From NCBI GenBank assembly GCA_036852015.1, contig JAANDG010000025.1, forward strand, positions 434,001-498,000: 64,000 nucleotides of DNA, read 5' to 3'. The DNA is from Pelodera strongyloides (Eukaryota > Nematoda > Chromadorea > Rhabditida > Rhabditidae). The notes under the pieces are model-generated. The model ran no database searches, was not told the DNA's origin, and worked only from the letters and a program-made list of their open reading frames with translations. Shown piece by piece: positions 8,298 to 61,479 of this stretch (position 1 is the first letter of the stretch; every line of letters starts with the position of its first letter). Both the position numbers and the translations under genes were made by a program.

Positions 8298-9372
8298 TCC
8301 TTTAGTGATCGCAAAATGTTTGTGAGAGTTGGTGACACTGTATCGGATGTTGTAGATTGTACTAGTGGTGTGCCACAGGGATCAGTATTAGGTCCAATCC
8401 TATTCTCGTTGTTTACCTCCGACCTAGCAATATCGTTGAGAAGTCTAGGTATTTCATTTGTATGGTATGCAGATGACATAAAAATATACAGTACTATTAA
8501 TGATCCTATAGATAGAATTTTAGTTCAACGCGCAATAAACTTGGTGCATGATTGGTCAATTGAGTTTCAGTTACCTTTGGCTCCTCATAAGTGCCAAGCA
8601 CTGTACATTGGTCCAAACAATCCAAAAGTGGACTACATTTGTAATTCGGTTGTGATTGAAAAGGTAACTCAGCTCAAAGACCTAGGATTTATTATGACAG
8701 ATGATTTATCCTTCTCTAAACATATTTCCTTTGTTTGTGCCCAAGCAAGAAAAAGAATGTTTGCTCTCTTTCGCACTCTGAAAACGCGGAAGGCAAACCT
8801 TTTGGTTCTTGCATATTCTCTTTATGTACGTTCAATTCTAGAGTCAGGCTCGGTTGTCTTTAGTCCATATAAGAAAAAGGATAAGGTGGCCCTAGATCGG
8901 ATCCAACGTACATTTACAAAGCGAATTTTTATGCGTTCCCAATTGCTTGATTACAATGATACACCCTCTAGTTCAGATAGAGATACATTATTGAAGCTTG
9001 ATACACTTGACAATCGACGTAGGAAGGCAGATGCTAGAATGCTCAGAAAAATATTGGCTGGCAAATGCGGCCATTATCTACGTTCAATGTACAAATTCAG
9101 GAATTCTAATCTGTCCTCTCGACGTGGTCGTATCAAAATCATAATCCCGCGGGTGACTAGGAATGTTCGCAGACACTGTTTTGTCCATAGAACTTCACTT
9201 ATGATTGAGAGTAACCCTCGCCTATTCCTGTAAACATAATGTTTTTATTTGATGCTTTTATTTTAATCAGATTTACATTTTCACGTTTCATAGTTATTCA
9301 TTGTGGTATTGCCTCGACAAAACTTGTGCGACATTTTATGTTCGTAATAAATGTTATGTTATGTTATGTTAA
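8298..9372 (+). mobile_element. 5'-truncated non-LTR retrotransposon (CR1/jockey-like) with RT fragment
   Basis: The open frame 8316-9233 encodes 305 residues of a non-LTR reverse transcriptase. GVPQGSVLGPILF lies at residues 18-30 and the catalytic YADD box at residues 51-54 (WYADDIKIYS). The thumb and C-terminal region follows to a natural stop. Finger and palm motifs before GVPQGS, the endonuclease and ORF1 are missing, so the copy is 5'-truncated, as usual for target-primed insertion. In-frame coding continues upstream of the ATG only to about 8298. The 3' end is a short simple-repeat tail of TTATG/ATGTT units (9350-9372), in keeping with CR1-like elements rather than poly(A) LINEs. The frame has no internal stop, so the insertion is probably young. 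The family name is inferred from RT and tail style. Confidence 0.9.
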
Positions 9373-33000: not shown

Positions 33001-36000
33001 ATGCAAGAGGACTAGCCCAGAAATATGATAGCAAGCCAGAGAACGAGTAAAAAGTGACTCAACTTTAAAAAAAAACCTACGTTTATATAAGCTAATTTTC
33101 TTATGGTTAGTCTTGGTTTTTTTAGTCACAGTTTGCATGTTTGGATGTGTGGATTCGCGTTACGCTAGAAATTTGTGTAAAAAAAAACAGCCTCGGAGGC
33201 GAGAGCGTAAATGGTAGACTCTTCTTACTCGTTATTATGCTAGAAGATTTTCTACCGCTAGAACTTACAATTTACAATTAGTAATTTATCAACTTTAGCT
33301 CGTAAAATTTGTATTTTGCCGCAGTATTTCTTATTTATGCGTGAACTCACCAATAAACGTTATATTATTAAATGTAAAAAAAAAGAAGAATAGAAAATTA
33401 CCCTCTTGTGAGAACCTGACCCCAACTATTGTCAGAAGTTCAAAATAATATTTACAAACTGCCCTGTCCGTTCTATGAAGTTCCAGAAAAAAAAAATATA
33501 AAAAAATCTTTATCCGAAAACTTGCAGACGTGAAAAGCATAACCCCCGCAATCATTTTGATAACAAAACCTTTGGCATATGGCGGAACGCTGAAAGTCAG
33601 CAGATGTGTGGAGAAGTATGAAACAAAGGAATTCGATCAAATACAGAAAAAATTATGCATAATAAGTTAAAGGGCAGGTTAACCATGCACCTTTCTACGA
33701 CTCTCTGGTCGCATGCGCGAATTTTTGCCATGGCGGGGCTAACTAATAATTAATATTAAAATCATATATTCCAGAAATAAAACTAAATTTATATCCGATA
33801 CTATTAGATGACCTTCGACAAAGAAGACAACGATAATAAAGCAATAAACCCATATATAATTGAAATTTCATATGAATAAATTTCATTTCCCGTTGCAAAA
33901 ACTCCCAACATTTACTGACACATGGTCAAAATTCAACGATTTTTCAAAACCCCAAAACAATACCCCCGTCTTTTTTCCACAACATAATAACCCGCAGGTG
34001 TCATATAAATTTTAATGTTTATTTTAAAGCGAAATGCCAGCTCCTTTGGAAAATTTGCATAGGATAAGCAAATCCTATGTATCATATGCTAATTTTGTAC
34101 GATCGTCCACGGCAATCGTACAAAATTAGCATAGGATACATAGGATTTGCTTATCATATGCAAATTTTCCAAAGGAGCTGGCATTTCGCTTTAATGACCA
34201 TCTTCGCAATAACTTTACTCGTAAAAACAGTTCATAGCTTTGGGCATCATCTTTCGCTTGCGAACATAAAATAACGCAAACAAAACGTCTGCGTCAAAAA
34301 GTGTCTTCCGCAAACAGAAATGAAGAGTCAAGTGTGAAATATAGGCAGTAAATGAGGGCGGAAAGGTGTAAAGATAAAGATAACGAATAACGACCCCGAA
34401 ACTACTCTAATACCCAAAACCTAAACTAACTAAACTATCAGAATTAAGAATGCAAAAGATAAACAAGTTTCAACCCTGTAAGATAATAAAGTATCGGGAT
34501 CTCGGGCTAATTTCCAAAAATCCAAATACACACTACTTAAACTATATTTTTAAACTCTCTCTCACCTCCCACTGGGAGGTGGGAGCATATTCCCGGTGTT
34601 CGTGCATACGGCCACAGTAGTGGGAAATCTTATAGTCCAATTTCCAACTATGCACCTTGCAAATTATTATTGCGTAATTTTTCCCTTTGACTAATTTCAA
34701 GATAAGTATAAGCTTCTCACAAACTATAGAACCGTCAAATTATCCCCTTTCTCAATTACAACCCGGCTATAAACAACAAGGTCAATTGTAACAAAATGGC
34801 CACTACTCCATCACTCATTGTCCTATTAATATCGCACTGTTTTGGCAGCTTCACGTACTGAAAACACACAAGAAACAATCAAAAATAATCGATGAGCTGA
34901 GAAGGAAACAACGAAGTAGCAAGAATCAGAAACTTTGAAAGTTTACATGTTTACAACGGTCGGAAATAGCTATAGCTTTTAGAAATAAGATCTTGGGGCA
35001 GAACTTTGCAAGGAAGGAACGAAGAAATAAGATAGTTACTATATGCTTAAATCTTAAATCACTTGAAACTACTTGAAACGCTTTAACGTATTCTCAACAT
35101 GGATACCTAATTAAGTGAAACACGATAAATAGAAAATAGAAAATAGAAAGAAAAGGTATAATTTAAAGCGAAATACTGGCCGGTTTTTGAAACGCATAGA
35201 TCAGCGTTCTTATGCAGCTTATGCAAATTAACAAAAATTGGAATAAAAAAAAATCGTGCTAAATTCATAAAAAAAATCGTGCTAAATTCGAGCAAATTGC
35301 ATAAATACGTAAGGATTCAGTTGTCCGCGATACGTTTCAAAAATCGGCCGGAATTTCGCTTTAAAATAAATAATAATATAAAAAAGTATAATCCACCTCG
35401 GAACGTTTGATCTGCGGCAAATGGAGTGAAAAATGATAGGACAATGCTGGAACGGCGTAAATCAAGGCCGATTTCTGCGGATGCCGCCATAATAATGGGA
35501 TAGCATTGGTGGATAATAGGCTATAGCAATAAGATTACCGGAGTGTATGGTTATCACCTGCACCGGTATCAGATCTTGTACTATCGTTATACTATTCACA
35601 CAAAGAGGAACCCTTCTGTACGATGTGTCGTAAAACTCGAGTAAATAAAGGGTAGGAGGTGTTCACAAACAAGAAACCCTCGTAGCGTTAATCGAACCAG
35701 AATGTTGGGAACCTTACTCAGATCAGGTCTCGAACCTTGTCAGACTCAGAAAGCACAGGTCCCAGGCTGGACCTTGCTTAAAAAAACCAAAATAGCAATA
35801 AATCTGGATCGTTGCAATCGGCTTTCGATCAATGATGCAACAGAATGCAAGAGCAACAGAACGGTGCTCAGCGAGTAGAAAAAGAGGAAATCAAATAAAC
35901 TCTTTTTGCAGGACTAGCAGAGACTGCGTTGAATAGTTCAGAGAATAGGTCTCTCTTTCTCCGCGGCTCTATTAAGCCTGGCCTGGCAGACAGTGATACT

Positions 36001-55645: not shown

Positions 55646-56338
55646 TCAAACAAAGCTAACTAAAACAATTGTATCTCCCTTTATCAAGGAGCACATAAGA
55701 CTACGTTGATATACAAGTCGTCCATTCCCAATTGGTAAAGGCCATAATGAATTGTCGGCGATTTGCCACTGTAAAAGCTCCGGAAGAACGCTTTCGAATT
55801 TACGTTTTGATTTCCGTCTCGATTCAAGTTTTCCAGGTAGAAATAATTCAACTGCATCACTTATAATAATATTCATATGATAGTCAAAAGCCGTAACGAC
55901 GCCTCTAACAATCCTGTCGATTTGGTGGTGAGCTCGCATCCTGATTTCTACCTTCCTTCGCGACCTCAACGCCTTAGTAAGCAGGGCTAGTGGTCCCTCA
56001 ACCAGTGTGTGCATAAATTGTACTGCGGTAGACGTCGTATTCAGATTCAGTTTCACTTTCTTGACATCGAAAAGTTCTCGTCCTCGAGTCGAAGCCAACG
56101 CGGCCAGTTTTGACTCTCTTTCTCGACGAATCGCGTTTTTACTTTTGTTGACGCCACGATCAATCTCACACAATTCGAGTGCGATCTCGGGATAATTTGC
56201 TATCAATTGGTGCTCGAAATCATCGACAGAAAGGAGGGATGTTCCTGGTTCACTAGAAGCATCATCAAGATCACTATCGGAATTCGACAGTTCCAGAAGA
56301 GCAAGTGGATCAATTTCGCCTAGAAACCTTTGTTCCAT
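55646..56338 (-). CDS. LSm11-like protein, U7 snRNP Sm-ring subunit (230 residues, intronless)
   Basis: In animals LSm11 replaces an Sm protein in the U7 snRNP ring, which directs 3'-end cleavage of replication-dependent histone pre-mRNA in the nucleus. Evidence here: residues 10-15 are DPLALL within an acidic N-terminus, like the DPLLAL stretch of animal LSm11 used to bind FLASH. Residues 109-122 (MHTLVEGPLALL) and 149-164 (TAFDYHMNIIISDAVE) match the LSm11 Sm1 motif with its D-x-x-x-N-x-x-x-x-D pattern. An insert of about 40 residues follows, and the Sm2 motif is near residues 209-229 (LIKGDTIVLVSF). A long Sm1-Sm2 insert plus an extended N-terminus separates LSm11 from ordinary Sm/LSm proteins. 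It is shorter than the human protein (about 360). The start follows a TTTTCAG acceptor by two bases. It is the first gene of a likely two-gene unit with eIF2B delta. An ordinary but extended LSm protein is the alternative. Confidence 0.85.
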   Translation of the reverse strand: MEQRFLGEIDPLALLELSNSDSDLDDASSEPGTSLLSVDDFEHQLIANYPEIALELCEIDRGVNKSKNAIRRERESKLAALASTRGRELFDVKKVKLNLNTTSTAVQFMHTLVEGPLALLTKALRSRRKVEIRMRAHHQIDRIVRGVVTAFDYHMNIIISDAVELFLPGKLESRRKSKRKFESVLPELLQWQIADNSLWPLPIGNGRLVYQRSLMCSLIKGDTIVLVSFV

Positions 56339-56352: not shown

Positions 56353-56852
56353 AGAGATCGAATGTTTAAACATAAGCACACTAAAGATACGCAACAAAAA
56401 CATATACTGCAGCACCCCCTGGACCCAGAAGCACAGTAATTGCATACGTAAAGAAAAATAACGTTGGTTGTGTAAAATAAACATAATAATAAAATGATGA
56501 TGTAAATTCACAACTTGTGAAATGCACTTTCGCCGCAAATGTGCGAAAATTGCAAGGAACGAGAGAGTGTGCATATTTGGAGTAAGAGACGCAAAAACAA
56601 AAATTACGATATCTACGGCGTCTTTCAACATCGGCACATGAAAGAATTGCGAACATAATTTCAAAGCTAAACCTTGTTTGCACACGTCGCGGCCACTACA
56701 TTTCTGCAGTATGGAGTTCACCAAAAATAAATAATCGTACAAATATGTTCGTAGGACAATTCATGTGTGAAGTGGTGGAGTAGAATTCTACAATTGGGTA
56801 GTACATTTCCCAGGGTAACATAAAGCCAGGGTTACGTACAATAGTATCCATA

Positions 56853-57012
56853 GCCCGTATTCTCGGGACGACGGAAATGTTCCGTTGGGGAACTCATTTG
56901 TATGCAAATTTCTCGACTATCTAGACTACCTTGAGGAAAAATTTGCATACAAATGAGTTCAAATGAGTACAAATACAAACGGAAAATTTCCGTCGTCCCG
57001 AGAATACGGGCT
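56853..57012. mobile_element. Small inverted-repeat element (CCGTATTCTCGGGACGACGG ends)
   Basis: The left end AGCCCGTATTCTCGGGACGA is complementary to the right end TCGTCCCGAGAATACGGGCT. Inner arms AACTCATTTGTATGCAAATT and AATTTGCATACAAATGAGTT also pair. One copy in the window. Confidence 0.9.
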
Positions 57013-57124: not shown

Positions 57125-57350
57125 CAATTGCTGAAACAACAGAAAAACCGTCGCTGGACCATCACCAAATGGTTTTAAACCAGCTGGTGACTGGTTCATG
57201 ACCATTTGGTGACCATGTTATGACAGTTTTCGATAACTTGGTCAAGTTGGTCACCAAATGGGCAGACCCACGAAAAAACCAGTGAACCGTCACCAAATAG
57301 GTTCACCCATTTCCTATAGCTCGTGTTATTATGTTGGACGACTTTGCTGG
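57125..57350. repeat. Dispersed repeat rich in GGTGACCATTTGGTGAC motifs (pair with 58975-59205)
   Basis: GACCATTTGGTGACC, CACCAAATGG and their complements recur several times. The text from CAGAAAAACCGT to GGTTCACCCATTTCCTAT aligns with 58975-59205 (same orientation). Confidence 0.75.
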
Positions 57351-57782: not shown

Positions 57783-58003
57783 TTAAAGCGAAATGCCAGC
57801 TCCTTTGGAAAATTTGCATATGATAAGCAAATCCTATGTATCCTATGCTAATTTTGCGCGATCGTCCACGTCTATAGGATTTGCGCGACCGCAACGCCTT
57901 AGTAAGCAGGGCTAGTGGTCCCTCAACCAGTGTGTGCATAAATTGTACATACGATTTGCTTATCATATGCAAATTTTCCAAAGGAGCTGGCATTTCGCTT
58001 TAA
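57783..58003. mobile_element. M4 element that captured an LSm11 gene fragment
   Basis: Ends TTAAAGCGAAATGCCAGCTC and its complement, as in 34024-34194. The left arm is intact to GATCGTCCACG. The right arm keeps only its outer part (ACGATTTGCTTATCATATGC onward). Between them lie TCTATAGGATTTG and then 65 bp of LSm11 coding sequence. It sits 1.44 kb upstream of the LSm11 start codon. The right junction falls at a shared GTAC. Confidence 0.95.
57884..57948 (-). pseudogene. LSm11 gene fragment inside M4
   Basis: 64 of 65 bases equal 55959-56023, the only difference being G at 57891 for T at 55966. It encodes residues 106-127 of the LSm11-like protein (QFMHTLVEGPLALLTKAL core of the Sm1 start), in the same orientation as the gene. 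It is not translatable as part of a functional protein. Confidence 0.96.
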
Positions 58004-58426: not shown

Positions 58427-58655
58427 TTAAAGAGAAATAGCGGACGATTTTTGAAACGCATCGTGGGCAACTGAATTCCTACGTATTTATGCTAATTTGC
58501 TCGAAATAGAAGTCGGCCTAAAGCGAAAGCACTTAAAATAAAAAATCGAGCTGCAGCTCGATTTTTTTATTCTAATTTTTGTTCATTTGCATACGCTGCA
58601 TAAAAATGCTGGTCTACTCGATGTGTTTCAAAAACCGGCCGGTATTTCGCTTTAG
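58427..58655. mobile_element. M1 element with internal palindromic insert
   Basis: TTAAAGAGAAATAGCGGACG at the left and AACCGGCCGGTATTTCGCTT then TAG at the right. After GCTCGA the copy has about 55 extra bases, including GGCCTAAAGCGAAA (M1-end text) and AAAAAATCGAGCTGC facing AGCTCGATTTTTT. Confidence 0.85.
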
Positions 58656-58887: not shown

Positions 58888-60209
58888 ATGGACAGTCCTA
58901 TTCACCTTGTTGTTGGGTTTTCTCTGCTTATTTTATTTGGTGAGTTATTTAAAAAGAAACCAAAAAAAAACTTTTCAGTGCACAGGAACGGAATAATTGC
59001 CAGAACCGCAGAAAAAACGTGGCGAAAACAAACATTTGATGACTGATTAATGACCAGGTGGTGACCATTCGGTGGCCAATTGATGACGGTTTTCGTTGAA
59101 ACTTGGTCCCCACCTGGTCATGAAGTGGTCGCCAAATGGGCTGGCCCACGAAAAAAGCAGTGGACCGTTACCAAATGGGTTCACCTATTTCCTATGTAAC
59201 GTCATACATGATACATAGTGCCGCATTGCTTTGCTTGAAATTATGTATTTCGCGCTGCTCGATAGCTAGAGTCTCAAGGTCTCAAGCCTCAAGCGAAAAG
59301 AAAATCATTCTCGAACGTAAAAATATATATTTTTGTGCTCATCATCATTCCGCTACACTCTCGCTAATAAAGGATGCAATTTTGAAGGGACAGGCCCATC
59401 AAAGTAAACCTATATTTACGATGCGTTCATAATGACTATCAAGCATTTTTATTACAATATATACAAACTAAATTTCACATTTATTTGCCATGGAAAACTT
59501 TTTTACGATGCGCTCAGCTTAAATGTATATCATAAAGCCGCAAATATCCTTGTCGTCTATGCAAATTTATCGTGAAATTATAATGCGATTAAAATTTGAA
59601 TATATATCTTTGAAATCTGCAGTTTTATGTTATGGTATACATATGCGTTGAGCGCATTGGAAAAAAAGTTTTCCAGGGCTAATAATGGTGAAATTTAGTT
59701 TGTATATATTGTAATAAAAATGCTTGATAGTCATTATGAACGTATCGTAAATATAGGTTTATTTTGATGGGCCTGTCCCTTTGAGGACACAAAGTTTAAA
59801 GCTAAATATCGGCCGGTTTTTGAAACACGTCGAGTTGACCATACATAATTCGTATGCTGCTTATGCAAATGAACATAAGTTAGAATACAAAAAAACGAGC
59901 TAAATTCGAGCAAATTAGCATAACTACTTAGAAATTCAGTGTCCACGATGCGTTTCAAGAACCGGCCGTATTTCGCTTTAACTAAACGATTAGCCCAACT
60001 AATTTCAGGATCACTTGTAATTGCCTGCGATCTACCGTTGATTCTACTAATTCTAACAAGTCAACAACTTCGTAAAGAAAACGATATTATACTGATATGT
60101 TTCATGACAGCTTCCGATTTTACACACGCATTAGCAAATGTTATCGGGGGTTTCGTACACATATACCGCTATTATGACGGGAGTATATGTGCGTTTTTTT
60201 CATTTAATG

Positions 60210-60250
<41 letters not shown>

Positions 60251-61479
60251 GGTTTATTGATTACATAAATAACATATAATCAAAAGGCGATACATGTATT
60301 TGTATAAATCCTATACACACATTTTTTAGTGAATAAGAACAGTGGTGTAATTTTAACTTTGAATTTCAAACAGGATTACCTTTCCTTTACTATTTTGTCA
60401 TGTAGAGTTCGTAAAAGTCGCTATCCATGCATCTCGCTCGCGCATACAAAACGACTGCATGGGAAACCAAAAACCCCGATTTCGCCCCGATCAAGTCCCT
60501 CAAAAAATGCCCCGGCGCGCCGCTGTGGCCAAAACGGGGACACATTTATAGGATTATTTTTTCTATCAATTTCAGTATCTACTTCTACGAACCATGAATG
60601 CCTATGTACGATATACCCAGTTATTTTTATCTTCAGTTATCAAATGATTGGCTCATCCACGTTAGCTGTGTCTGTAGACCGATTTTTTGCAATAAACCTT
60701 CCGCTCAAGTACAGAAATTTTGGAGGAAATTACGCATATCGTCTCATTGCAGGCAATTTATCGATTTTTTTTTTGATTTTTGAACTAATCAATGTTCCAT
60801 GGCCCTAGTTAGATAGTCCGAAGCCACACAACCCTATGAATTGGAGTATCGCTTAGACTATCGATAGGAAAATATCGATTGAAGATTGGAGCACTATTAA
60901 CGTGCCGACGACTATTACTATGTATACAAGACTATACTTATTCAGCTATAAGCATCTACATTGTTATCAGTTCTGTGGCTGCAATTATCTGGACAATTAA
61001 CGGTTCCGCGCTACCTGCTTCGGGGCAATGCTTCACAGCAGAAAGTTATAACCCTACAATATGGGGATATTTGTTGTATTTCCGAATTACCACCATCATA
61101 TGTAGTATCTTGGTCTATTTGGCGATATTCTTTCGCGTGGTGTGTTTTGTTCATAAATGATTTCTAATACTGAAGCGAACACCAGGTTAGGGTAGTGAAA
61201 TTTTCTGTCAATTAAAGCGCAATACCGGCCGGTTTTTGAAACACGCATTCCTATGCAGCTTATGCAAATTAACAAAAATCAGAATAAAAAATCGAGCTAA
61301 ATTCGAGCAACTTTGCATAAATACGCAAGAGTTCAGTTGTCCACGGTGCATTTCAAAAACCGGCCGGTATTTTGCTTTAAAATGTCTTTCTTTTCAGTTT
61401 CACGAATTCTCTACACGAAACAACGCAATCACCAATCCACATTTTTCAAAGAATTTTCTAGCGATTACAAAGACTATTG
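58888..61479 (+). CDS. Seven-helix chemoreceptor-like gene, apparently incomplete at the 3' side
   Basis: Nematode-type G-protein-coupled receptor, probably of the serpentine chemoreceptor superfamily (Srsx-like is my best guess). Exons: 58888-58939 (MDSPIHLVVGFSLLILF), 60009-60182 (LVIACDLPLILLILTSQQL and a second helix ending in YRYYDG), 60576 to about 60740 (ECLCTIYPVIFIFSYQMIG, then STLAVSVDRFFAINLPLKYR), about 60946-61158 (helix ISIYIVISSVAAIIWTI, loop with CFTAESYN, helix to AIFFRVV) and possibly 61398-61479. VDRFFAINLPLKY is the DRY-like box at the end of helix 3. The first three junctions keep frame; the exon 3/4 join uses a weak GTCTCA donor. Helices 6 and 7 are not found before the next repeats, so the gene is truncated, decaying, or has far exons I missed. 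Introns contain a fold-back, two M1 copies, an (AAT)n run and other repeats. The strand is opposite to its neighbours. Confidence 0.7.
58975..59205. repeat. Second copy of the GGTGACCATT-type repeat
   Basis: ATGACCAGGTGGTGACCATT, TGGTCGCCAAATGGGC and GGGTTCACCTATTTCCTATG align in order with 57125-57350. It lies within intron 1 of the receptor gene. Confidence 0.75.
59382..59784. mobile_element. Long fold-back element, about 403 bp
   Basis: TTGAAGGGACAGGCCCATCA and the near complement TGATGGGCCTGTCCCTTTGA. The arms pair for about 140 bp (AATGACTATCAAGCATTTTT with its complement; GATGCGCTCAGC with GTTGAGCGCAT). TTGA replaces TTAA at both ends. Confidence 0.9.
59796..59981. mobile_element. M1 small TTAA element in receptor intron 1
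   Basis: TTAAAGCTAAATATCGGCCG and AACCGGCCGTATTTCGCTTT then AA. Its right end is 27 bases before the exon 2 start at 60009. Confidence 0.9.
60210..60249. repeat. (AAT)n microsatellite
   Basis: About 13 uninterrupted AAT units in receptor intron 2. Confidence 0.97.
60465..60545. repeat. Fragment of the CCCCGATTTCGCCCCGAT repeat
   Basis: ACCAAAAACCCCGATTTCGC then CCCGATCAAGTCC matches one arm of 25270-25445. Confidence 0.7.
61212..61380. mobile_element. M1 small TTAA element in the receptor gene
   Basis: TTAAAGCGCAATACCGGCCG and AACCGGCCGGTATTTTGCTT then TAA. Its right end is 17 bases before a TTTTCAG acceptor (exon start 61398). Confidence 0.92.

Follow-up and report, generated by a model that had tools for sequence, protein, structure and literature searches.

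How does a fragment of a protein-coding gene come to lie inside a small palindromic repeat, close to the gene itself? The question is raised by an element in the window, the stretch of 64,000 nucleotides of Pelodera strongyloides DNA that was analysed as a whole. The element belongs to a palindromic family with TTAA ends, which we call M4, and one of its arms is interrupted by 65 bp of a neighbouring gene. It offers a base-by-base view of a small palindromic transposon gaining a coding fragment of a neighbour gene, likely without moving.

Anatomy of the filled element

The element carries TTAA at each terminus, has terminal arms of 58 nt that are 98% complementary, and contains a core of the GCGC type. 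It was compared with a GCGC reference copy of M4 that is identical to the copies at loci L018 and L053. Positions 94-113 of the reference (20 bp) are missing and positions 114-171 (58 bp) are kept, with 70 bp (57876-57945) lying between the lost and the kept parts, so that the description of the right arm as mostly replaced, given in the initial annotation, overstates the loss. The same annotation likened the layout of the element to that of the palindrome at 34024-34194; both are indeed M4 palindromes, but they differ in core type, GCGC in the former and TACGATC in the latter. The coordinates of all features are collected in Table 1.

Table 1. Features of the filled M4 element, its donor and a comparison copy (window positions)
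Feature	Position	Strand	Basis
Standard 171-bp M4 palindrome, other core type (TACGATC), comparison copy	34024..34194	+	
Donor gene, 230-aa Sm-like (LSM-domain) reading frame	55646..56338	-	
Donor segment, encoding about residues 106-127 of the minus-strand frame	55959..56023	+	Genome search, comparison with insert
M4 palindromic TTAA element with insert, 221 bp	57783..58003	+	TTAA at both ends, arms, relatives genome-wide
Left arm and loop, 88 bp, equal to GCGC reference	57783..57870	+	Comparison with reference
Loop remainder with G to T at 57871 followed by CTAT; AT overlap of the first switch (57874-57875)	57871..57875	+	
ATAGGATTTGC, first copy of right-arm 117-127; single-C overlap with donor at 57884	57874..57884	+	
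Captured 65 bp of the Sm-like gene, one mismatch (57891)	57884..57948	+	
TAC shared by the end of the donor and the right arm (reference 114-116)	57946..57948	+	
Right arm resumed; the second 117-127 copy has C for G at 57952, and the final 51 bp equal the reference	57949..58003	+	

The insert is preceded by a displaced piece of the right arm, AGGATTTGC (reference 119-127), or ATAGGATTTGC (117-127) when the overlap is counted. One copy of the ATAGGATTTGC stretch begins at 57874 and a second, differing by one base, at 57949, placing 11 bp on both sides of the insert; after the TAC that ends at 57948, the second copy reads ATA, the G to C change, and GATTTGC onwards. The overlaps at the three junctions are AT, C and TAC, and the chance of six or more overlap bases across three junctions is 0.034 under a simple random model, in keeping with the microhomology-guided template switching or repair that had been suggested. 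The right junction, on the other hand, had been placed at a GTAC of the M4 arm. The GCGC reference has no GTAC on either strand, the motif belonging to the TACGATC core; the GTAC at 57945-57948 arrives with the gene piece, and the bases that it has in common with the right arm are TAC, from GATACATAGG.

Three substitutions, at 57871 (against the reference copy), 57891 (against the donor) and 57952 (against the reference copy), lie 3, 7 and 4 nt from junctions; the other 139 arm bases (the first 88 and the last 51) are identical to the reference copy. Since 42 of the 221 bp are no more than 7 nt from a junction, all three substitutions would fall in this zone by chance with a probability of about 0.007.

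Other repeats occur in the surroundings. A 70-bp direct repeat adjoins the element (57248-57317 and 59126-59195; 89% identical, 1,878 bp apart), a further palindrome lies between the donor gene and the element at 56852-57012 (35-nt arms 97% complementary, inner 25-nt arms 96% complementary), and copies of another TTAA-ended repeat, marked by the motif ACCGGCCGGTTTTTGAAAC, lie at 58427-58654, 59796-59981 and 61212-61380.

The donor gene and the direction of copying

Positions 57884-57948 are identical to 55959-56023 at 64 of 65 positions, and donor and copy lie 1,925 bp apart on the same contig and in the same orientation. Searches of the genome (159,866,919 bases) with 91 bp around the insert and with 270 bp around the donor each found only these two places. 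The presence of a gene piece in an M4 element is thereby confirmed, as is its foreignness to the ancestral M4, and the reading of the insert as ancestral M4 sequence is ruled out.

The donor frame matches the Pfam LSM domain over residues 133-166 (E 4.9e-7), and alignments of the donor protein to SmE and LSm3 start at residues 110-115, within the captured stretch (approximately residues 106-127). Because the donor lies within a continuous frame of 230 residues, with the Sm homology beginning inside the captured stretch, we take the Sm-like gene to be the source and the element to be the recipient; the reverse, with the gene as recipient, is ruled out on the same grounds. The gene had been named LSm11-like. 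The Sm/LSm domain stands, but SmE (E 0.00013) and LSm3 (E 0.00034) both score better than LSm11 (E 0.0055), and the Pfam assignment is to the general LSM domain. A search of the protein collection with the donor gene returned 622 candidates, none at E 0.001. Elsewhere in the window we observed a reverse-transcriptase fragment at 8298-9230 (Pfam RVT_1, E 4.5e-15) and a serpentine chemoreceptor-like frame at 60308-60805 (Srsx, 22.2 bits, just below the curated cut-off of 24.1), and Rfam gave no matches in the 64-kb window at gathering thresholds.

The M4 family and its probable repair scars

M4 elements have two core types, TACGATC...GCAATCGTA and GCGCGATC...GC(T/A)ATCGCGC. Across the whole genome, the 37-base M4 end occurs without mismatch 243 times in forward and 248 times in reverse orientation. 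The standard gap of 97 between exact inner 15-mers, corresponding to a total length of 171 bp, is found in at least 1,292 copies. Gaps of 99-159 gave 97 forward and 99 reverse matches, gaps of 111-171 gave 14 copies (12 of them also in the 99-159 class), and gaps of 172-232 gave 8. The total comes to approximately 1,399 copies for a gap of 97 and gaps of 99-232. The family looks young, and the view that the capture was recent is supported.

Most of the M4 elements listed begin and end in TTAA, a few being mutated. After TTAA the sequence starts AGCGAAATG, and the CCCTT-like start of a terminal repeat, which is conserved in piggyBac-type elements according to excerpts of PMC10813416, is absent. 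The TTAA target fits piggyBac-like elements, whereas the terminal motif does not, and because the start AGCGAAATG is unlike the CCCTT-like motif we do not file M4 as piggyBac. The Caenorhabditis palindromic TTAA repeat PALTTAA2, listed with piggyBac in the excerpted text of PMC1431705, resembles M4 in its TTAA ends and, by its name, in being a palindrome; the main text of PMC5395297 makes no mention of PALTTAA.

About 100 of the counted M4 copies carry probable scars that add length. Among the 22 long variants (14 with a gap of 111-171 and 8 with a gap of 172-232), five have non-M4 DNA inside an arm, namely the element studied here (L029), L047, L049, L051 and L056; this is 5 of approximately 1,400 counted copies, or about 0.4%, and where the added DNA is traceable it appears to come from the neighbourhood. 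In L056 (C180), an 88-bp insert consists of three collinear blocks of the element's own left flank, with 18-20 bp skipped between blocks; the source flank starts about 167 bp before the element and has the same orientation, and a genome search found related sequence at three places, all on the same contig and the element itself counted. In L049 (C740), 44 of 55 insert bp are identical to C740:2343-2386, inverted and 2.2 kb away, with CGAT and ATAA common to insert and source at their ends. The source is itself one copy of a dispersed repeat. Among the 40 candidates scored out of 197, 39 further copies show 88-97% identity over the matched length; a local origin of this insert is therefore likely rather than proven. 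The 32-bp core of L047 has no other genome-wide match with three or fewer mismatches, and the 17-bp insert of L051 has no source within about 3.4 kb.

The remaining 10 variants with a gap of 111-171 are all rearranged within M4. L026 is a patchwork of right-arm pieces, L040 is likewise a patchwork within M4, L042, L048 and L050 contain jumps back within the element, and L044 is a 9-bp tandem array. Ten of 13 shorter variants, which were the first listed and not a random sample, are explained by tandem duplication to within one base, L036, L037 and L039 being the exceptions. Breakpoints showed no significant bias toward the hairpin tip, where 8 of 14 lay and 5.4 were expected (P 0.13).

Other loci among the 22 long variants were not counted as arm captures. 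L057 (G000:C293:140745-140995) is an M4 copy with about 93 bp that match an abundant dispersed repeat (of 477 candidates, 40 were scored). This DNA has an ATT-rich end and is flanked on each side by TATGTAT, and it likely represents a nested retroelement insertion. In L058, two partial copies are joined with 23 bp of non-M4 DNA in between, and L052-L055 and L059 are joined, nested or rearranged M4 copies. More generally, L045, L046, L052-L055, L058 and L059 consist of M4 copies that are fused or nested with other M4 copies or lengthened by parts of them. At L019 (G000:C68:95800-97800, 311-1666), approximately 1.36 kb with 2.6 copies of a 315-bp tandem unit lies between two M4 ends; the unit looks tRNA-like by eye, ARAGORN finds no tRNA in it, and the interior is possibly a larger capture or a nested insertion.

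Origin of the insert and comparison with known systems

We propose, with a probability of about 0.8, that error-prone repair of a break, with templates switched in series and probably of the polymerase-theta type, built the gene copy into the element where it now stands, and that transposition was not the route; we infer both the in-place origin of the filled element and the acting enzyme. In the proposed sequence of events, a standard M4 copy would have sat at this TTAA and broken, or its replication fork collapsed, close to the hairpin tip. Beyond CTAT the growing strand would have abandoned the loop, with the right arm serving as priming site and template for 9-11 nt, before it switched at a single C to the Sm-like gene, of which it copied about 65 nt. 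TAC would then have guided its return to the right arm, at a point in front of the part copied earlier, doubling that stretch and dropping 20 bp of the arm, and the filled element would not have multiplied since.

In C. elegans, according to excerpts of PMC5068794, polymerase-theta inserts contain approximately one error per 30 bp, with errors concentrated around the template switch; of the deletions that bear inserts, 2-3% have taken their template from another chromosome or from a distance of more than 1 kb. The three changes in about 82 bp here come near that rate. In-place repair is supported also by the siblings, in that L056 drew on its own flank, L049 has a 44-bp stretch identical to DNA 2.2 kb away, and L026 and L040 are patchworks. 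Against it stand the shortness of the first (AT) and second (C) overlaps, the two of five arm inserts for which a near donor was not found (L047 and L051), the dispersed and inverted source of L049, and the lack of a significant breakpoint bias toward the hairpin tip; against polymerase theta stands the length of 65 bp, usual inserts being shorter than 25 bp according to excerpts of PMC5068794 and PMC8654963. The case was noticed with donor and copy in one window, so that their nearness is partly a selection effect. L056, which was not picked by a shared window, repeats the near-donor pattern, and by hand calculation the chance of one random site in 159.9 Mb falling within 2 kb is about 2.5e-5.

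The closest competitor is stalling of a fork at the hairpin with template switching (FoSTeS/MMBIR), in which the strand being synthesised departs from the palindrome, uses nearby DNA as its template and then comes back, without end joining. The palindromic context, the serial switches and a donor 1,925 bp off in direct orientation all suit it, as does the local donor of L056, also in the same orientation, but the source of L049 is inverted. Because single-base priming and the clustering of errors suit end joining somewhat better, we favour polymerase-theta end joining and consider the fork-based account possible but somewhat improbable; the two are inseparable by sequence alone. Clean excision is usual for piggyBac-type TTAA elements, which speaks against abortive gap repair after excision by a transposase, that is, transposition-dependent gap filling. 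Such repair would be compatible with the adjacency of the donor, and with a family that looks young and arm bases identical to the reference at 139 positions. The breakpoints of the element, however, are internal and both full TTAA ends are retained, where larger losses near the ends would be expected from what excerpts of PMC8277862 describe, and we regard it as unlikely.

An assembly artefact, fusing two nearby stretches, has to be weighed as well, since hairpin repeats are hard to assemble and the locus was judged from the assembled sequence. The insert is one base off its donor and arm sequence stands on both sides of it, and L056, a separate locus, has an independent patchwork of like style; an artefact is accordingly very improbable. 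Least probable of all is a Pack-MITE in the usual sense, captured elsewhere and then transposed to this site. The intact TTAA ends would permit such movement, but it is disfavoured because there is one filled copy genome-wide and it sits beside its sole donor.

Small RNAs against LSm11 had also been envisaged as a product of the element. Folded as RNA, the element is predicted to form a strong hairpin (-123.5 kcal/mol, z -19.35) with a continuous outer stem of 50 bp that pairs M4 arm with M4 arm. Among the 65 captured bases, 32 are predicted to pair among themselves in short hairpins, 26 to be unpaired and 7 to pair with other bases of the element. A transcript would, on this model, give long double-stranded RNA of the M4 arms and not of the gene, and the silencing idea is weak.

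The interest of the locus rests on the M4 family as a natural series of repair scars. M4 is a uniform hairpin of high copy number with a known reference, in which each copy can be examined for templated inserts and for where they came from, and the family would make the repair pathway at natural germline palindromes directly testable. We speculate, rating the idea a little below even odds, that M4 palindromes may be germline fragile sites that record their own repair, with more than 1,000 near-identical hairpins acting as parallel reporters. Palindromic MITEs could then be a standing source of short local duplications of gene fragments that arise without movement of the filled element.

Plant Pack-MITEs and Pack-MULEs carry a gene fragment between terminal inverted repeats. 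The parallel drawn to Pack-MITEs in the initial annotation holds for this arrangement and fails for capture followed by mobilisation: the filled element is a single copy that has not been amplified, and its donor is adjacent. The polymerase-theta inserts of C. elegans, as presented in parts of PMC5068794 and PMC8654963, are similar in being patchworks of copied pieces with 1-3 bp priming and errors near switches, but they are mostly shorter than 25 bp, with templates that lie no more than 20 bp from the break. Among the papers searched, none brought together miniature inverted-repeat elements, hairpins, template switching and captured flanking DNA, and PMC8277862 alone uses the term Pack-TIR.

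The nearest relatives are the single-copy Pack-TIRs of animals. Excerpts of PMC8277862 report 370 Pack-TIRs in 100 animal genomes, the single-copy ones mostly arising by transposition-independent gap filling; 160 of 281 (56.9%) lie at most 15 kb from the parental copy, mostly less than 5 kb, and microhomology, with a median of 2 bp, is present in 67.6%, with internal breakpoints. The present element shares with them the non-element DNA within one terminal-inverted-repeat element, the single copy, the nearby and unambiguous single parental copy, the microhomology and the internal breakpoints. Its 65 captured bp fall below the 100-bp cut-off of that search, which is not a feature of mechanism. 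Compared with the Pack-TIRs described in those excerpts, it has a nearly perfect hairpin as host, a repair that also doubled arm sequence, and many sibling scars in one family. By its sequence, we regard the element as a small addition to this known class of single-copy Pack-TIRs formed by gap filling.
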